Below, piece after piece: positions 57,532 to 61,798 of a stretch of 64,000 bases of DNA. Below the pieces are notes generated by a model. It made no database searches and was not told the origin of the DNA. It was given only the letters and a program-made list of their open reading frames with translations. The translations under genes were made by a program, and so were the position numbers. Each line of letters starts with the position of its first letter. Position 1 is the first letter of the stretch. Source of the stretch: Clostridia bacterium (GTDB lineage Bacteria; Bacillota; Clostridia; Oscillospirales; Acutalibacteraceae); assembly GCA_017507805.1 (NCBI GenBank), contig JAFWAC010000029.1, positions 82,514 to 146,513 of the forward strand, in the 5' to 3' direction.

Positions 57532-57590
57532 ATTATCACATCCTTAAATGCATTATATGCTTGTGTCAAGTTAGGGGCACATTCCCCCTC

Positions 57591-57943
57591 GGCTCCCTTT
57601 GACAAGGGTAGATACCCTCACTGCGTGAGGGAAATGTCACAAAGTGACAAAGGGAGACAGCCGCCGTCAGCGGCTGTCAGCGAAGCTGACTGAGGGAGAG
57701 ATTTTTTAACGGTTAAATCTATATATTCACATACATCGCTAAAATTACGGTCAATATCTAAATTGCAAATTTTTAAAACTGTTAAATTAGTAATATCTTA
57801 AAAATTTATATCAAAGTTTTCGTTACCACGGTGTCATATTTTTTCTAAAAGTTTTTGCAAGAGGGATATTAGCTTTATTATATTCTTTCATAGTCTCTCC
57901 CTCCTTCAAAACTTCGTTTTGCCACCTCCCTCGTCAGAGGGAG
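57591..57943 (-). mobile_element. internally deleted copy of the DUF559 terminal-inverted-repeat element
   Basis: Right end CCTCCCTCGTCAGAGGGAGGC (57923-57943) is identical to that of the intact element at 60672-60692. The left end GGCTCCCTTT (57591) is degenerate and carries extra hairpins. Inside are remnants of both ends of the nuclease gene, while about 155 bases of its centre are missing relative to the full copy. It is a MITE-like, non-autonomous derivative. Confidence 0.65.
57660..57891 (-). pseudogene. DUF559 nuclease remnant
   Basis: From the ATG at 57891 the frame reads MKEYNKANIPLAKTFRKNMT, matching the intact DUF559 protein, then meets TAA. A deletion joins codon ~34 to codon ~87, removing the D/ExD nuclease motif. 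The tail ICNLDIDRNFS-DVCEYIDL and KKSLPQSASL is still readable. Confidence 0.8.
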
Positions 57944-58017
57944 GCTTCTCTTTTCAACTTGTGGAAAAGACTTCCACAAGTTGAATTTCCGCATGGCAAC
58001 GAGTATTTGTCAAGTTT

Positions 58018-58046
58018 AATATATCATTTCTTATGAATTTTTTCAA
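58018..58046 (-). promoter_or_regulatory. element-borne promoter, copy 1
   Basis: On the minus strand: TTGAAA (58046-58041), 17 bases, TATATT (58023-58018). Box sequences and spacing are the same as at 60778-60806, although the spacer differs. Confidence 0.6.
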
Positions 58047-58055
58047 GTTGTATAT

Positions 58056-58091
58056 AATAGAGTTATCTTCAAATTTCGGGATAACTCTATT
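58056..58091 (-). terminator. hairpin terminator after the zinc-ribbon gene
   Basis: AATAGAGTTATC (58056-58067) pairs exactly with GATAACTCTATT (58080-58091), 20 bases past the stop of the zinc-ribbon gene. Same stem as at 60819-60854. Probably works on both strands. Confidence 0.65.
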
Positions 58092-58111
58092 ATTATATTT
58101 TGCGCAGACTA

Positions 58112-58477
58112 TTATTTTTTTGTTTTAAAAAGGTTGATAGATATAAAAATACCTAAAATACCTAAACCAATCAAAATTATATCTATTGGACCTGTTAGTC
58201 GCGTTGGTTCTGATGGATCTCTCCATGAATTTTGAGATGAATTTCCACCGCTTTGAATTAAGTCAATTACAGCGCACATGATAATAAATAGCGAAGCTAT
58301 TAACAAAAGTATACCTATTATTGTTTTATTGGTTTTGAAAAAAGTTTTTATATCCTGCCATAAACCGCTTGTTAAATTGCTTTGACTATTAGTAATATCA
58401 TTACATATTCTATTACCGCAGTTTGGGCAAAATGTATTTTCTTTGTCCACAGGATTTCCGCATTTGCTACAAAACAT
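58112..58477 (-). CDS. zinc-ribbon membrane protein
   Basis: A 121-residue protein. The N-terminal zinc ribbon has two CxxC pairs (FCSKCGNPVDKENTFCPNCGN, residues 3-21). A linker and two transmembrane helices follow (about 52-72 and 98-116). Zinc-ribbon/TM proteins of this layout are widespread in Clostridia, with unknown function. A GGGGGG-type site precedes the ATG. Flanked by a BspA-like gene upstream (50 bases). Confidence 0.65.
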   Translation of the reverse strand: MFCSKCGNPVDKENTFCPNCGNRICNDITNSQSNLTSGLWQDIKTFFKTNKTIIGILLLIASLFIIMCAVIDLIQSGGNSSQNSWRDPSEPTRLTGPIDIILIGLGILGIFISINLFKTKK

Positions 58478-58526
58478 TTTTATCCCCCCTTTATCTTAAC
58501 TGATATATAATTAACCATCAAAATAT

Positions 58527-59417
58527 TTAAGGACTATTAAAATGGATTGTCATTGTTTTTATGTTATTGTCTTGAATATTTATTTTATCCCAATCTTCTT
58601 GAGAGCCTTCGTAATATATCTCAAAATCATAATTAAATGAAAATAAAGATTTTTCTATTTTTTCTACACTTTTAGGAATTATAACCTCTTGCAAATTATT
58701 AGCTAAACCAAATGCATTCTCTTTTATAACCTTGATTGTGTCAGGTAATTCAATATGTGTCACTTTTTTGTTATAATCAAATGCATTTTCTCCAATGCTT
58801 TCCACGGTATAATTATATATTTGGCTTGGTATTTCAATAGTACCTTCCATTTGCTCGTCAATTTTTACTATTGATGCTTTGTTGAGAAATACTGTGTATT
58901 CGTATCCTTGCCAATACCATGCATGATTAAAATACAAACACAATGCTAACGCTGAGGTCATTAAGCAAACTATTAAATGCGCTATGCAAAAATGGGCAGT
59001 TCGCAGATATCTCAATACAAAGTCGATTAACCAACTTGCTCCAAAAAGTAAAGCACCGTATAAAAAAGCGAAAAGCACTCTATCTAACCAATGGGAGCCT
59101 GCAACCTCGTCAATCAGTGTCAACAAAACGCTGTACATACAAATTGTTTTAACTGTATCACCAACAATATTAATAATGCGCTTGTTTAAACGAATGCCTA
59201 TGTCGGAAACTAATGTCCTGATTAACACCGAAATTAATGTTGGTACGATAATAACCCATTTATTATTAATTAAAAACATATTTGCGTCTTTTATAAAAAC
59301 AGTTGCAAGAACCAGCAACACTACCATACCCAAACCGCTTCCGATAGAGTTGTATGATACAAAGTGTGCATTACCATTACTGTCTGCGTACACATATCCA
59401 TTTTCTAAATCATTCAT
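58527..59417 (-). CDS. membrane protein with BspA-type leucine-rich repeats
   Basis: A 296-residue protein. About five transmembrane helices occupy residues 25-170. The C-terminal 120 residues are BspA-type leucine-rich repeats (YTVESIGENAFDYNKKVTHIELPDTIKVIKENAF, shortened here as YTVESIGENAFDYN and IKVIKENAFGLANNLQEVII) ending in a YEGSQEDWDKI motif common in LRR_5 proteins. Probably exposes the repeats outside the cell. A TTGACA-18-TATAAT promoter overlapped by GGTTAA repeats lies just upstream, shared with the divergent XRE gene, so repression by that protein is likely. Confidence 0.65.
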   Translation of the reverse strand: MNDLENGYVYADSNGNAHFVSYNSIGSGLGMVVLLVLATVFIKDANMFLINNKWVIIVPTLISVLIRTLVSDIGIRLNKRIINIVGDTVKTICMYSVLLTLIDEVAGSHWLDRVLFAFLYGALLFGASWLIDFVLRYLRTAHFCIAHLIVCLMTSALALCLYFNHAWYWQGYEYTVFLNKASIVKIDEQMEGTIEIPSQIYNYTVESIGENAFDYNKKVTHIELPDTIKVIKENAFGLANNLQEVIIPKSVEKIEKSLFSFNYDFEIYYEGSQEDWDKINIQDNNIKTMTIHFNSP

Positions 59418-59438
59418 TTCTTTTCCCTCCCAATTATA

Positions 59439-59490
59439 TTAACCGATATTGGTTAATATAATTATACACCGCAATCGGTTAATATGTCAA
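59439..59490. promoter_or_regulatory. divergent promoter with GGTTAA operator repeats
   Basis: Minus-strand promoter TTGACA (59490-59485), 18 bases, TATAAT (59466-59461) reads into the BspA-like gene. A TTAACC...GGTTAA palindrome (59439-59444, 59451-59456) sits just past the -10 box, and another GGTTAATAT (59477-59485) sits between the boxes. Their context ATYGGTTAATAT is the same, which fits binding by the adjacent XRE repressor. Confidence 0.6.
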
Positions 59491-59509
59491 TAGGGAGGAT
59501 TGATTTTTT

Positions 59510-59710
59510 ATGATTTCCTATGATAAATTATGGCAAACAATGAAAGAAAAAGGTGTTACACAATACACACTTATCAAAAAATACAATATCAGCCCTGCAC
59601 AAATCACACGATTAAAGCGAAACGAAAGTGTCAGTACACATACAATAGAAATGTTTTGTAAGATTTTAGACTGTAATGTCGAGGATGTTATGCAGTATAT
59701 AAAAGATTAA
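59510..59710 (+). CDS. small XRE/Cro-type transcriptional regulator
   Basis: A 66-residue protein consisting of one helix-turn-helix of the Cro/C1 YozG kind: YDKLWQTMKEKGVTQYTLI, then ISPAQITRLKRNESVSTHTI, then LDCNVEDVMQYI. AGGGAGG gives a strong start. Divergent from the membrane LRR gene and separated by 92 bases containing repeated GGTTAA sites, so it probably represses that gene and itself. A hairpin terminator follows immediately. Confidence 0.8.
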   Translation: MISYDKLWQTMKEKGVTQYTLIKKYNISPAQITRLKRNESVSTHTIEMFCKILDCNVEDVMQYIKD

Positions 59711-59735
59711 AAAAGCCGTGAAATTCACGGCTTTT
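59711..59735 (+). terminator. terminator of the XRE gene
   Basis: A 12-bp stem, AAAAGCCGTGAA (59711-59722) with TTCACGGCTTTT (59724-59735), starting right after the stop codon. Confidence 0.85.
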
Positions 59736-59877
59736 GTTATATCATATCGTGGTGTATTATAGCTAATTGTGGCGAAGCCACACCGAACCTATTACCTCTT
59801 ACTTCTTACATATTACTTCCCAAAAATCCCGTAGAATTTTGGTTGAGGTAAGAGTGAATAGGTAAGAAGTAAAAAGT

Positions 59878-59911
59878 AAAAATCCCGCCCACTATCGTGA
59901 ACAGGATTTTT
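59878..59911 (-). terminator. terminator of the small membrane gene at 59957
   Basis: AAAAATCC (59878-59885) pairs with GGATTTTT (59904-59911), followed on the minus strand by a T-rich run. It lies 46 bases past the stop at 59957. Confidence 0.6.
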
Positions 59912-59956
59912 GGGACCGACACTCAAAATGGAACCGGTCGAAAAACCTGTTTTTCT

Positions 59957-60184
59957 TTACTTTTTAAATATTTTCAAAAACAATGTGCAAAGTAAACCCA
60001 ACGCTCCCAAAACAATCATTAAGATGGGAACTGATTTATCTTCATTTATATCTTCTTTGAAACTAAATAGATACCACAGACCAACAGCTAAAACTAATAC
60101 CGAAATAATTAAACTTATTATGAAAAACAATTTTGGGTGTTTCTTTTCTAATTCTTCTAAATATGGATTTGTTTTAAAAGCCAT
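59957..60184 (-). CDS. small two-helix membrane protein
   Basis: A 75-residue protein with a charged N-terminus, two transmembrane helices (about 18-41 and 54-71) and a KIFKK end. AGGCGGTGATGAT precedes the ATG. No family recognised. Its leader (ATATGCTTGTGT and the sequence up to the ribosome binding site) resembles that of the YcxB-like gene at 57531, and an intact DUF559 element sits directly upstream. Confidence 0.55.
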   Translation of the reverse strand: MAFKTNPYLEELEKKHPKLFFIISLIISVLVLAVGLWYLFSFKEDINEDKSVPILMIVLGALGLLCTLFLKIFKK

Positions 60185-60235
60185 ATCATCACCGCCTTTA
60201 AGTGTAGTATATGCTTGTGTTAAACGAGGAACAAA

Positions 60236-60637
60236 TTACCTCTTGGCTCCCTCTGACGAGGGAGCTGTCAGCGAGGCTGACTGAGGGAGAGATTTTTTAA
60301 CAGCTAAATCTATATACTCACATACTCCGCTAAAATTACGGTCAATATCTAAATTACAAATTCTTAAAACCGTTAAATTCATCTCTTTTAACTCTTTTGT
60401 ACGGACTTCATCTTTTTCTGTTTGTTTGGCAGTATAATGTCCACCACCATCAAGTTCAACAACAAGTCTTGCTTTAGCACAATAGAAATCTGCTATGTAA
60501 TTACCAATAGCTTTTTGTCTTTGAAATCTTATAGGGTAATATCTTAAAAACTCATACCAAAGTTTTCGTTCCCAAGGTGTCATATTTTTCCTTAAAGTTT
60601 TTGCAAGAGGGATATTGGCTCTATTATATTCTTTCAT
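60236..60637 (-). CDS. DUF559 / Vsr-like endonuclease domain protein
   Basis: A 133-residue protein of the DUF559 type, related to Vsr-fold PD-(D/E)xK nucleases. The motif I-A-D50-F-Y-C...LVVE61-L-D63-GGGHY contains the expected acidic residues, preceded by TPWERKLWYEFLR and followed by LTVLRICNLDI. ATG 60637 with GGAGGGAGAG upstream is the natural start. The longer frame to 60706 only reads through the repeat. The last 15 residues are encoded by the left terminal repeat itself. The gene is enclosed by inverted repeats, and a deleted copy lies at 57660. It may be the mobility function of this small element, by analogy with repeat-associated transposases. This is inference. Confidence 0.75.
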   Translation of the reverse strand: MKEYNRANIPLAKTLRKNMTPWERKLWYEFLRYYPIRFQRQKAIGNYIADFYCAKARLVVELDGGGHYTAKQTEKDEVRTKELKEMNLTVLRICNLDIDRNFSGVCEYIDLAVKKSLPQSASLTAPSSEGAKR

Positions 60638-60692
60638 TTTCTCTCCCTCCGTCAAAACTAAAGTTTTGCCACCTCCCTCGTCAGAGGGAGGC
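60245..60692 (-). mobile_element. DUF559 nuclease element with terminal inverted repeats
   Basis: GGCTCCCTCTGACGAGGGAG (60245-60264) and its near-exact inverse at 60673-60692 bracket the nuclease gene. Each end also contains its own CTCCCTC/GAGGGAG hairpin. Outside the right end the copy shares a further 160 or so bases (hairpin 60717-60739, promoter 60778-60806, stem 60819-60854) with the deleted copy at 57591. No target-site duplication was identified. Confidence 0.6.
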
Positions 60693-60777
60693 TTGGTTGT
60701 CAGCAAACATCGTAACTCGTGGAAGTCATTTCCACAAGTTGAATTTTCCGCATAACAACAAGCATTTTCTTATATTT

Positions 60778-60806
60778 AATATAACATTTTTTATTATCAT
60801 TTTCAA
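60778..60806 (-). promoter_or_regulatory. element-borne promoter, copy 2
   Basis: Minus strand: TTGAAA (60806-60801), 17 bases, TATATT (60783-60778). It would transcribe the DUF559 gene and then the membrane gene at 60184. Confidence 0.65.
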
Positions 60807-60818
60807 GTTATATATACA

Positions 60819-60854
60819 AATAGAGTTATCCCGAAAATACGAGATAACTCTATT
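60819..60854. terminator. hairpin terminator, same stem as at 58056
   Basis: AATAGAGTTATC (60819-60830) with GATAACTCTATT (60843-60854) and a TTTTTG tail on the plus strand. It lies upstream of the element promoter and past the stop of the gene at 60960. Confidence 0.65.
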
Positions 60855-60959
60855 TTTGATTGTATGACAAAAATCATACTGATACATTGAAAATCATACT
60901 AAAGAAAATGCAGTTAAAAACTTTGTTTTTAAGCAGTAAATATGCCAAAAGTATGACGG

Positions 60960-61492: not shown

Positions 61493-61679
61493 GCGACAAA
61501 GTCGCAAGTATAAGTGAAATCGTGCTATCGCACGGTGAAATCAAAGGCTTTCGCCTTTGGTGAAATATTTTGCTAACGCAAAATGTGAAATTAAATCCAC
61601 CCACCGCCGCAGCGATTTCACTCGAGCGAAGCGAGAATTTCACATTGCGAAGCAATATTTCACCCACCCGTTAGGGTGG
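61493..61679. repeat. array of short hairpins separated by GTGAAAT / ATTTCAC
   Basis: At least five near-perfect hairpins follow one another: 61493-61505, 61521-61534, 61542-61559, 61567-61584 and, after a central spacer, 61644-61656 and 61664-61679. A weaker stem lies at about 61621-61635. On the left the spacer is GTGAAAT (61514, 61535, 61560, 61585). On the right it is ATTTCAC (61615, 61637, 61657). The spacers therefore invert around a centre at about 61600, and TAAATCCACCC (61591) pairs with GGGTGGATTTA (61674). It is not a CRISPR array since units differ and carry stems. Function unknown. Confidence 0.7.
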
Positions 61680-61688
61680 ATTTAGTTG

Positions 61689-61723: not shown

Positions 61724-61798
61724 TGGAGGTGCCACCCAGATTTGAACTGGGGAATAACGGTTTTGCAGACCGTGGCCTTACCACTTGGCTATGGCACC
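61724..61798 (-). tRNA. trnC: tRNA-Cys (anticodon GCA)
   Basis: Reads on the minus strand from GGTGCC (61798) to an encoded CCA (61726-61724). The acceptor stem GGTGCCA pairs with TGGCACC. The anticodon loop CTGCAAA gives GCA. The T arm is CCCAG-TTCAAAT-CTGGG. The D arm contains AGCCAAGTGGTAAGGC. Length 75 bases including CCA. A strong terminator follows. Confidence 0.95.

Follow-up and report, generated by a model that had tools for sequence, protein, structure and literature searches.

How did a gene of the DUF559 family come to lie between inverted palindromic repeats in the window (the whole 64,000-nucleotide stretch analysed here), together with a sister copy that has lost its centre? 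The probable answer, in our view, is a single-gene mobile element. It encodes one protein, a small Vsr-like PD-(D/E)XK nuclease (DUF559), and ends in paired palindromes to which a further block of purines is added. Relatives lack the element at some of the sites where it is found. Judged from sequence, this comparison of occupied and empty sites shows mobility, and we infer that DUF559 itself would drive the insertion.

The gene and its palindromic ends

The intact element (60245-60690) consists of a DUF559 gene between inverted palindromic ends. The gene (60236-60637, minus strand) encodes 133 aa from its ATG, and its longer TTG frame (60236-60706) belongs to DUF559 by a profile match to PF04480 well above the curated cut-off (E 9.4e-27, 93.5 bits against 20.6). 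D50, E61 and D63 are invariant in two alignments, of 27 and 58 sequences. These acidic residues and the solved relatives found by sequence, 3hrl (endonuclease-like protein, E 3.7e-24) and more weakly 3r3p (mobile intron protein, E 1.6e-4), point to a PD-(D/E)XK, Vsr-like nuclease. We take 3r3p to be I-Bth0305I; EDxHD homing endonucleases are akin to Vsr. Related copies are under purifying selection (median dN/dS 0.096).

The palindromic end sequence, CTCCCTC-TGAC-GAGGGAG, lies at 60247-60270 and 60667-60690, 92% complementary over 24 nt. Read on the minus strand, the 5' end (60640-60690), which is repeated in the genome, runs GCCTCCCTC-TGAC-GAGGGAGGTGGC, a variable hairpin and GACGGAGGGAGA; the 3' end (60245-60292) runs TCTCTCCCTCAGTC, a variable hairpin and GACAGCTCCCTC-GTCA-GAGGGAGCC. 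Rfam gave no match on the element. The first-pass annotation had described a Vsr-like DUF559 gene enclosed by inverted repeats with palindromic ends, and the profile match and the 24-nt inverted repeat bear this out; that the terminal repeat encodes the C-terminus of the protein can be read from the sequence, the last codons lying inside the 3' end repeat.

Palindromes accompany DUF559 well beyond this locus. Among 102 DUF559 loci, hairpins with C/T arms were found upstream of 59, downstream of 88, on both sides of 52 and on neither side of 7, so that at least one side lacks a recognised hairpin in 50; control windows contained one in 31 of 795 (150 nt) or 41 of 795 cases (190 nt), i.e. 4-5%. 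At any one locus the left and right ends resemble each other more closely than ends taken from different loci do (0 of 5000 permutations, n=52), measured against a fair control free of hairpin-choice bias, and end distances follow protein distances (Mantel r 0.54 left and 0.45 right; 0 of 5000 permutations each, 52 loci). In this final run one member of each duplicate pair and the window copy were dropped. Earlier runs, which left out every own-genome copy and the two members of each of two duplicate pairs, led to the same conclusions (hairpins upstream of 54, downstream of 83 and on both sides of 47 of 97 loci; Mantel r 0.51 and 0.41). The co-evolution of gene and ends that had been suggested from the window alone thus stands as co-variation. 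Moreover, a triplex-like mirror match between the second purine block and a third scores 0.85 or higher in 65% of the left ends (34 of 52), compared with 7% of shuffles, so that the mirrored third purine block of BoxC/TMECO repeats is found here too.

Copies, decayed copies and empty sites

The sister copy (57591-57945) aligns with the intact one at 90-92% identity on either side of a net 155-nt gap, which by codon arithmetic takes out residues ~35-86, D50, E61 and D63 among them. Its gene remnant (57700-57891, minus strand) also contains nonsense codons, as read by eye in the alignment. The remnant is followed by a 3' end (57591-57702, minus strand) with extra nested palindromes, seen by eye, and preceded by a 5' end (57893-57945, minus strand) sharing one direct repeat with the intact copy at 100%. 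The deletion and the nonsense codons are therefore as first described. The accompanying picture of an autonomous element and its MITE holds for another set of copies: the MITE-like forms are gene-less and ~130 bp long, and the 57591 copy is a decayed gene copy.

The own genome contains three intact copies, one deleted copy and at least eight places where both ends occur without a gene within 119-147 bp, i.e. short gene-less copies with the ends of a gene-bearing element, as in MITEs. At least 40 matches to the element were found there, a lower bound since 40 of 47 candidates were scored; with the full copies and two-ended places among them, the ends are not a product of chance. Comparable forms exist elsewhere: Sphingomonas parapaucimobilis has end pairs spanning 102-120 bp in six plasmid records, relatives of genome G039 have single-end repeats (by eye), and one genome has two loci whose 459-bp cores are 100% identical and which agree at 95% over 701 bp, BLAST finding no similarity outside that stretch.

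Ends also occur apart from the gene. Of 21 congeneric genomes lacking a Pfam-detected DUF559, 8 gave end-like matches, and one of these 8 has a DUF559-like fragment at a contig edge; the copy number of ends correlates only weakly with the presence of DUF559 (Mann-Whitney p 0.02, Fisher p 0.18). Repeats independent of DUF559, named by the first-pass annotation as a point against the element, are thus real in part. These ends may have outlived their partner, as MITEs do, or the genes may have been lost in assembly gaps.

A 473-bp DUF559 element occupies locus L009 in two species, and two congeners lack it there (four genomes searched). It is flanked by a 39-bp direct repeat, perfect in G039 and 38/39 in the other occupied genome (G084); of the empty sites, one (G085) has a single copy of the repeat and in the other (G086) the flanks overlap by 29 bp. 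The palindromes are separated from the duplication by 13 and 10 bp of intervening sequence. On its sense strand the insert has a single frame of at least 40 aa, DUF559, overlapped by a 92-aa antisense frame; a transposase gene, as an insertion sequence would carry, is therefore missing from it, while the duplication of the target at occupied and not at empty sites is as in insertion sequences, at this one locus. Occupied and empty versions of one site, as expected of a mobile element, also exist at the whiA-dnaE junction, where 3 of 20 genomes fetched have a DUF559 element and 14 of 20 a short intergene. Elsewhere, a DUF559 element has inserted in frame into a methyltransferase gene.

Further direct repeats of 30 bp, 23 bp and, more weakly, 18 bp flank other elements. 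Scanning 55 loci, duplicates kept in, gave nine with a score of at least 14, of which four were flagged as palindrome arrays and two more judged to be arrays by eye; with these set aside, a clean long direct repeat is present in only 3 of 55 loci, plus one (L011) below the score. Three other comparisons did not serve as tests. All 7 matched Azospirillum records hold the locus; in Sinorhizobium, other S. meliloti match mainly the neighbouring IS among the best 40 of 150 matches listed, which makes the flank strain-specific within that set; and the single short copy in G031 sits on a contig for which no match to the unique flank was found in G022.

What moves the element

The nuclease would recognise its own folded ends (a hairpin or cruciform, perhaps a triplex) and nick them; it would also nick each strand of the target, at positions some tens of bases from each other. 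Then the element might be copied into the gap and host repair fill in, leaving long, variable target duplications and imprecise ends, and recombination between similar ends could collapse elements into solo palindromes.

Alternatively, DUF559 may be a Vsr-type mismatch-repair or host nuclease, the palindromes having been brought next to it by some transposase (RAYT/Y1 or another) and now carrying the gene along. VsrA of Caulobacter, a DUF559 protein genetically linked to a cytosine methyltransferase, is proposed as a repair enzyme in the part of the source concerned (PMC12907096), and both the palindrome-only copies where DUF559 was not detected and the Y1 transposases in 4 of 9 genomes (G000 included) would fit. 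However, Y1_Tnp matches are absent from the other 5 of the 9 searched, including the element carriers G022 and G039, the latter listed as 98% complete and having both the insertion and many end copies; hairpins are much more frequent at DUF559 than in control windows, and their sequence varies with that of the protein. We therefore regard this alternative as unlikely. A free-standing homing endonuclease, which would cut the allele without the gene and be copied by homologous recombination, the palindromes being recognition sites or terminators, is very improbable, the least probable of the explanations weighed here. The kinship to 3r3p and the existence of an EDxHD homing family (described in the part of PMC3943268 concerned) speak for it, but non-allelic copies, target duplication, terminal inverted ends and gene-less derivatives are not expected of allelic homing.

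Another question regards what surrounds the copies. An outer repeat, A, which the two window copies share with further copies in the genus, lies at 60198-60244 and, upstream of the nuclease gene, 60714-60857 around the intact copy; repeat comparison places it at 57544-57590 and 57956-58094 around the deleted one. The left flanks are 77% alike (57544-57608 and 60198-60262), the right ones 78-85% in pieces (57956-58094 and 60714-60857). Since this homology extends past the ends, the window duplication has its boundaries elsewhere than at the 20-bp ends. The common flanks show that repeat A travels with the window copies. Segmental duplication alone was rejected as the whole story of the two, given the other copies on other contigs. 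Both window copies, one further copy (contig C7) and a short copy (C11) sit within A, and short copies sit within a second outer repeat, B, at five places by pattern and one more by eye. As A, B and (by eye) a third, C, accompany window-type copies, a trans-acting transposase could move those. That the outer, TIR-like repeats are mobile units under another transposase, with DUF559 and its palindromes as passengers, is nevertheless very improbable as the explanation, only a shade less improbable than homing. In E. coli, an indel of ~186 bp that contains a BoxC pair also seems to have outer inverted repeats (by eye), but none of the A/B/C kind was seen, by eye, at the L009, L223, L182 and L011 sites, and different outer repeats hold the same inner unit. 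We thus retain the nuclease-driven element as the preferred reading.

Known repeats and mobile elements

Ends of proteobacterial DUF559 relatives resemble the BoxC/TMECO triplex repeats of E. coli. In MG1655 such a repeat lies between fabI and ycjD, the DUF559 gene of E. coli, and this repeat, 3' of ycjD, has the pattern CCCTCNCCC N3-6 GGGNGAGGG N3 GGGNGAGGG. BoxC, PIT and TMECO are intrastrand-triplex repeats, with no mobility gene near TMECO sites according to the part of PMC4666352 that treats them. BoxC pairs are polymorphic: at least 80% of the fepB-entC query is present in 2752 of 5426 E. coli genomes, and of the alx-sstT query in 3728 of 5426; the latter count may contain a collapsed allele at 91%. 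Two alleles of each, aligned to K-12, showed an indel and no clear duplication; one of the four is a collapse to a solo palindrome. The sapF-ycjD-fabI region was rejected as an empty-site test, the alternative allele being an efflux operon in the two genomes looked at (named eef in the relevant part of PMC12817139).

We tentatively suggest, at somewhat less than even confidence, that DUF559 elements form a class of their own within single-gene mobile DNA, in which a Vsr-type nuclease would act on triplex-capable folded ends; that BoxC/PIT/TMECO and other GC-rich palindromes of this sort, across bacterial phyla, arose from them and were mobilised by them; and that E. coli YcjD is a relic. This would give some long-known bacterial palindromic repeats a candidate origin, suggest a role for DUF559, a widespread uncharacterised domain found also in YcjD, and propose a type of mobile element run by a nuclease without a transposase. 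Among the papers listed in the open-access searches, none was seen to connect DUF559 with MITEs or repeats; most subscription journals lay outside the search, and the link may be in print there.

The DUF559 ends share with BoxC/PIT/TMECO the pyrimidine block, purine block and mirrored purine block, and the occurrence as singles and inverted type A and type B pairs (PMC4666352, in part), but in the window ends the second loop is long and contains a hairpin, which by eye puts them outside the TMECO pattern. CGTC-tagged REPs, palindromic repeats said to have no dedicated transposase (PMC3733652, in part), are a lead only, compared by description. IS1272 also interacts with inverted-repeat targets, but encodes a transposase and gives no target duplication (PMC5678879, in part). 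EDxHD homing endonucleases such as I-Bth0305I (PMC3943268, in part) share the nuclease core, by the 3r3p match, whereas the DUF559 element shows non-allelic insertion and no intron or intein was seen. With IS elements and MITEs it shares a gene-bearing copy, deleted derivatives, inverted ends and target duplication, but it has no transposase, a long duplication and imprecise ends. REPtrons, as far as the pertinent part of PMC3733652 describes them, likewise have one gene between inverted palindromes, dispersed as single, paired and arrayed copies; there the gene between the REPs encodes a Y1 HUH tyrosine transposase (RAYT), whereas here it is a PD-(D/E)XK nuclease, DUF559, and insertion with a target duplication is observed for the gene-bearing element itself.

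Copies of the element in its own genome

The intact DUF559 gene lies on the minus strand at 60236-60637, with the 5' end of its element at 60640-60690 and the 3' end at 60245-60292. Each end consists of an outer palindrome, CTCCCTC-TGAC-GAGGGAG, followed by a hairpin of variable sequence and a further GAGGGAG. The second copy (57591-57945) retains the two ends; it is shorter by 155 bp and carries nonsense codons. The first-pass annotation had read the pair as a mobile element and its MITE, and those of its sequence statements that we checked (gene, ends, deleted sister copy with nonsense codons) hold; we add that homology of the two copies extends past both sides into a common outer repeat, 'A'. 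The source is a draft genome of 2.34 Mb (G000, window at G000:C18:82514-146513), and the closest named protein relative retained, from a Clostridia MAG, is 93% identical. Elsewhere in the window, a Gut-1 RNA (RF01706) match at 61610-61688 adjoins a tRNA gene (61727-61798) in palindrome-rich surroundings, and paired, operator-like TTAACC-N-GGTTAA-like palindromes (59437-59485) separate a small HTH gene (59510-59710) from an LRR_5 gene (58527-59417).

A DNA search of the genome gave at least 40 matches (40 of 47 candidates scored). Counting full against deleted copies, as had been suggested, yielded three full ones (contigs C18, C7, C14) and one deleted, in two pieces. At eight places both ends lie within 119-147 bp and the gene is absent between them; two further places (C34, C12) have a second, diverged end by eye. 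Another outer repeat, 'B', with GGCTGTCTC ends, holds short copies at five places by pattern and at a sixth (C15) by eye, and repeat A encloses the C7 copy and a short copy on C11. Judged by eye, the same A site differs in content among genus relatives: it contains short elements with at least two types of end, or a single palindrome (loci L102, L065, L111), and at L115 a DUF559 gene of another subfamily (DUF559 match at G082:C28). One explanation of the single palindromes is collapse through recombination between both ends, a state of which one Escherichia coli alx-sstT allele is an instance. In relative G080, contigs C16, C22, C35, C44 and C50 carry numerous end copies, some regularly spaced by about 260-330 bp, like tandem arrays.

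Occupied and empty sites

The comparison of occupied and empty sites, also proposed in the first-pass annotation, was informative at locus L009, occupied in two and empty in two of the four genomes searched. In G039 and G084 the element is flanked on each side by a 39-bp sequence, the copies agreeing fully in the former and at 38/39 positions in the latter; at the empty sites the flanks meet and share one copy (39-bp overlap, G085) or overlap by 29 bp (G086). The insert measures 473 bp besides one 39-bp copy, and 13 and 10 bp separate the duplication from the palindromes. Even if an empty site were a later loss, the target duplication would itself indicate insertion. At the whiA-dnaE junction (20 genomes fetched, picked out of 61 searched) both states also exist: a DUF559 element is present in three genomes (G012, G015 and G074, the last with a stop), the intergene is short in 14 (13-88 bp for the 13 that were parsed; G021 was judged by eye), two have other sequence there and in one the contig ends. 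The whiA 3' end recurs beyond the element in G015 (15/18 bp). The other sequence in G003 and G017 (L279, L282) is about 0.4-0.6 kb, as if the junction tolerated insertions.

Further cases accompany these two sites. In one genome, SIG675, two loci share a 459-bp core at 100% identity and 701 bp at 95%; BLAST finds no similarity outside the 701 bp. At L008 (1501-1800) DUF559 interrupts a site-specific DNA methyltransferase gene in frame, leaving a 762-aa open frame, and the insert is absent from both relatives aligned. On a Sphingomonas plasmid, DUF559 with inverted ends sits between sufB and sufC; used as a query in a distant search, this region matched 70 places spread over 10 records, two of them being the element itself and a sufC match from Xanthomonas, and among the matches listed six places had pairs spanning 102-120 bp. 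In L220 and L226, DUF559 units are nearly identical at two sites of one genome, and an upstream TTCTCTG..CGGAGAA hairpin lies, by eye, close to the homology boundary.

The score for long direct repeats was reached by 9/55 loci and by 0.1% of 8000 mismatched pairs. Duplications are nonetheless seen in few loci, because six of these nine are palindrome arrays (four flagged, two by eye); the clean cases are L009, L223 (28/30 bp) and L182 (22/23 bp), and the range of duplication lengths rests on these few.

Association of gene and ends

DUF559 was present in 24/60 relatives searched. We retained 79 loci from species representatives (at least 559 relatives were found), a sample biased to close relatives, and reduced 111 pooled loci to 102 by removing the window copy and, from five duplicate pairs, one locus each, three more being lost to short flanks. 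A hairpin with a C/T-rich arm was present upstream of the gene at 59 loci and downstream at 88; 52 had both and 7 had neither, against 31/795 (150 nt) and 41/795 (190 nt) control windows 0.7-5 kb away. In a distant set of 25 loci (19/56 finds from a viral and 6/45 from a plasmid collection), under a slightly looser criterion, the counts were 14, 15, 10 and 6 (control 35/294); the six without any hairpin, of which some have short flanks, are L122, L123, L124, L138, L139 and L267.

End sequences differ from subfamily to subfamily, yet the two ends of a locus resemble each other: the best similarity between arms was 0.903 within against 0.794 across loci (0/5000 permutations, n=52), and Mantel correlations between protein and end distance were 0.54 (left) and 0.45 (right; 0/5000 each, n=52). 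Gene and ends therefore travel together, which does not by itself prove that the protein recognizes them. Selection on the nuclease is purifying (median dN/dS 0.096 over the 35 usable pairs among 55, from 11 sequences).

Part of the evidence counts against this reading. A hairpin is missing from at least one side in 50/102 loci, about half. The first-pass annotation had also held that repeats occurring independently of DUF559 genes would speak against mobility, and this is partly so: end-like matches occur in 8/21 genus genomes without Pfam-detected DUF559 (in one of them, G032, a contig edge carries a DUF559-like fragment), and end numbers are only weakly higher with the gene (Mann-Whitney p 0.02, Fisher p 0.18; draft genomes, 10 candidates scored per genome among the matches listed, gene matches subtracted by hand). 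Also on this side, a DUF559 protein of Caulobacter has been proposed as a repair nuclease (PMC12907096). What the data show is insertion with target duplication (at one site that is empty in relatives), derivatives that lack the gene, folded ends that match each other and a nuclease under constraint.

Mechanism and known systems

We infer that the nuclease might nick the folded ends and make offset nicks in the target, and that host synthesis and joining would finish the insertion. Duplications of such length, together with ends that are not flush, are better matched by offset nicks and imprecise capture than by a DDE transposase of the classical kind. The element does not seem to need a Y1 transposase in its own genome: among the nine genomes searched (G039 and others being drafts), no match turned up in G039 and G022, nor in G074, G085 and G086, and one was found in G000, G031, G015 and G084.

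The BoxC/PIT/TMECO repeats of E. coli are pyrimidine-purine-purine blocks that formed intrastrand triplexes in vitro; MG1655 has 23 copies, including five inverted pairs of types A and B, and the authors report no mobility activity in their gene contexts (PMC4666352). TMECO 9 (1,351,205-1,351,239) separates fabI from ycjD, annotated as DUF559, and a sapD-to-fabI query including ycjD was covered to 80% or more in 3362/5426 E. coli genomes. By eye, the Sphingomonas element has one CCG-loop and one TTG-loop end, resembling TMECO types B and A. Across loci, the third purine block is mirrored (match at least 0.85) in 34/52 left ends against 7% of shuffles. The window's ends miss the TMECO pattern itself, so that a DUF559 origin of BoxC-type repeats is a hypothesis with good motivation and not a result. 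At fepB-entC, and this too is evidence to the contrary, a pair forms an indel of about 186 bp in which we saw no clear duplication (both by eye). BoxC/TMECO pairs at fepB-entC and alx-sstT (L334-L337) are polymorphic among E. coli genomes, one allele being reduced to a single repeat.

IS elements are defined by a transposase, which this element does not share, and homing genes by allelic insertion with no duplication, which does not describe it. Its anatomy is like that of REPtrons, whose defining Y1 transposase sets them apart from it; the window feature is a real mobile element whose sole enzyme is unusual.
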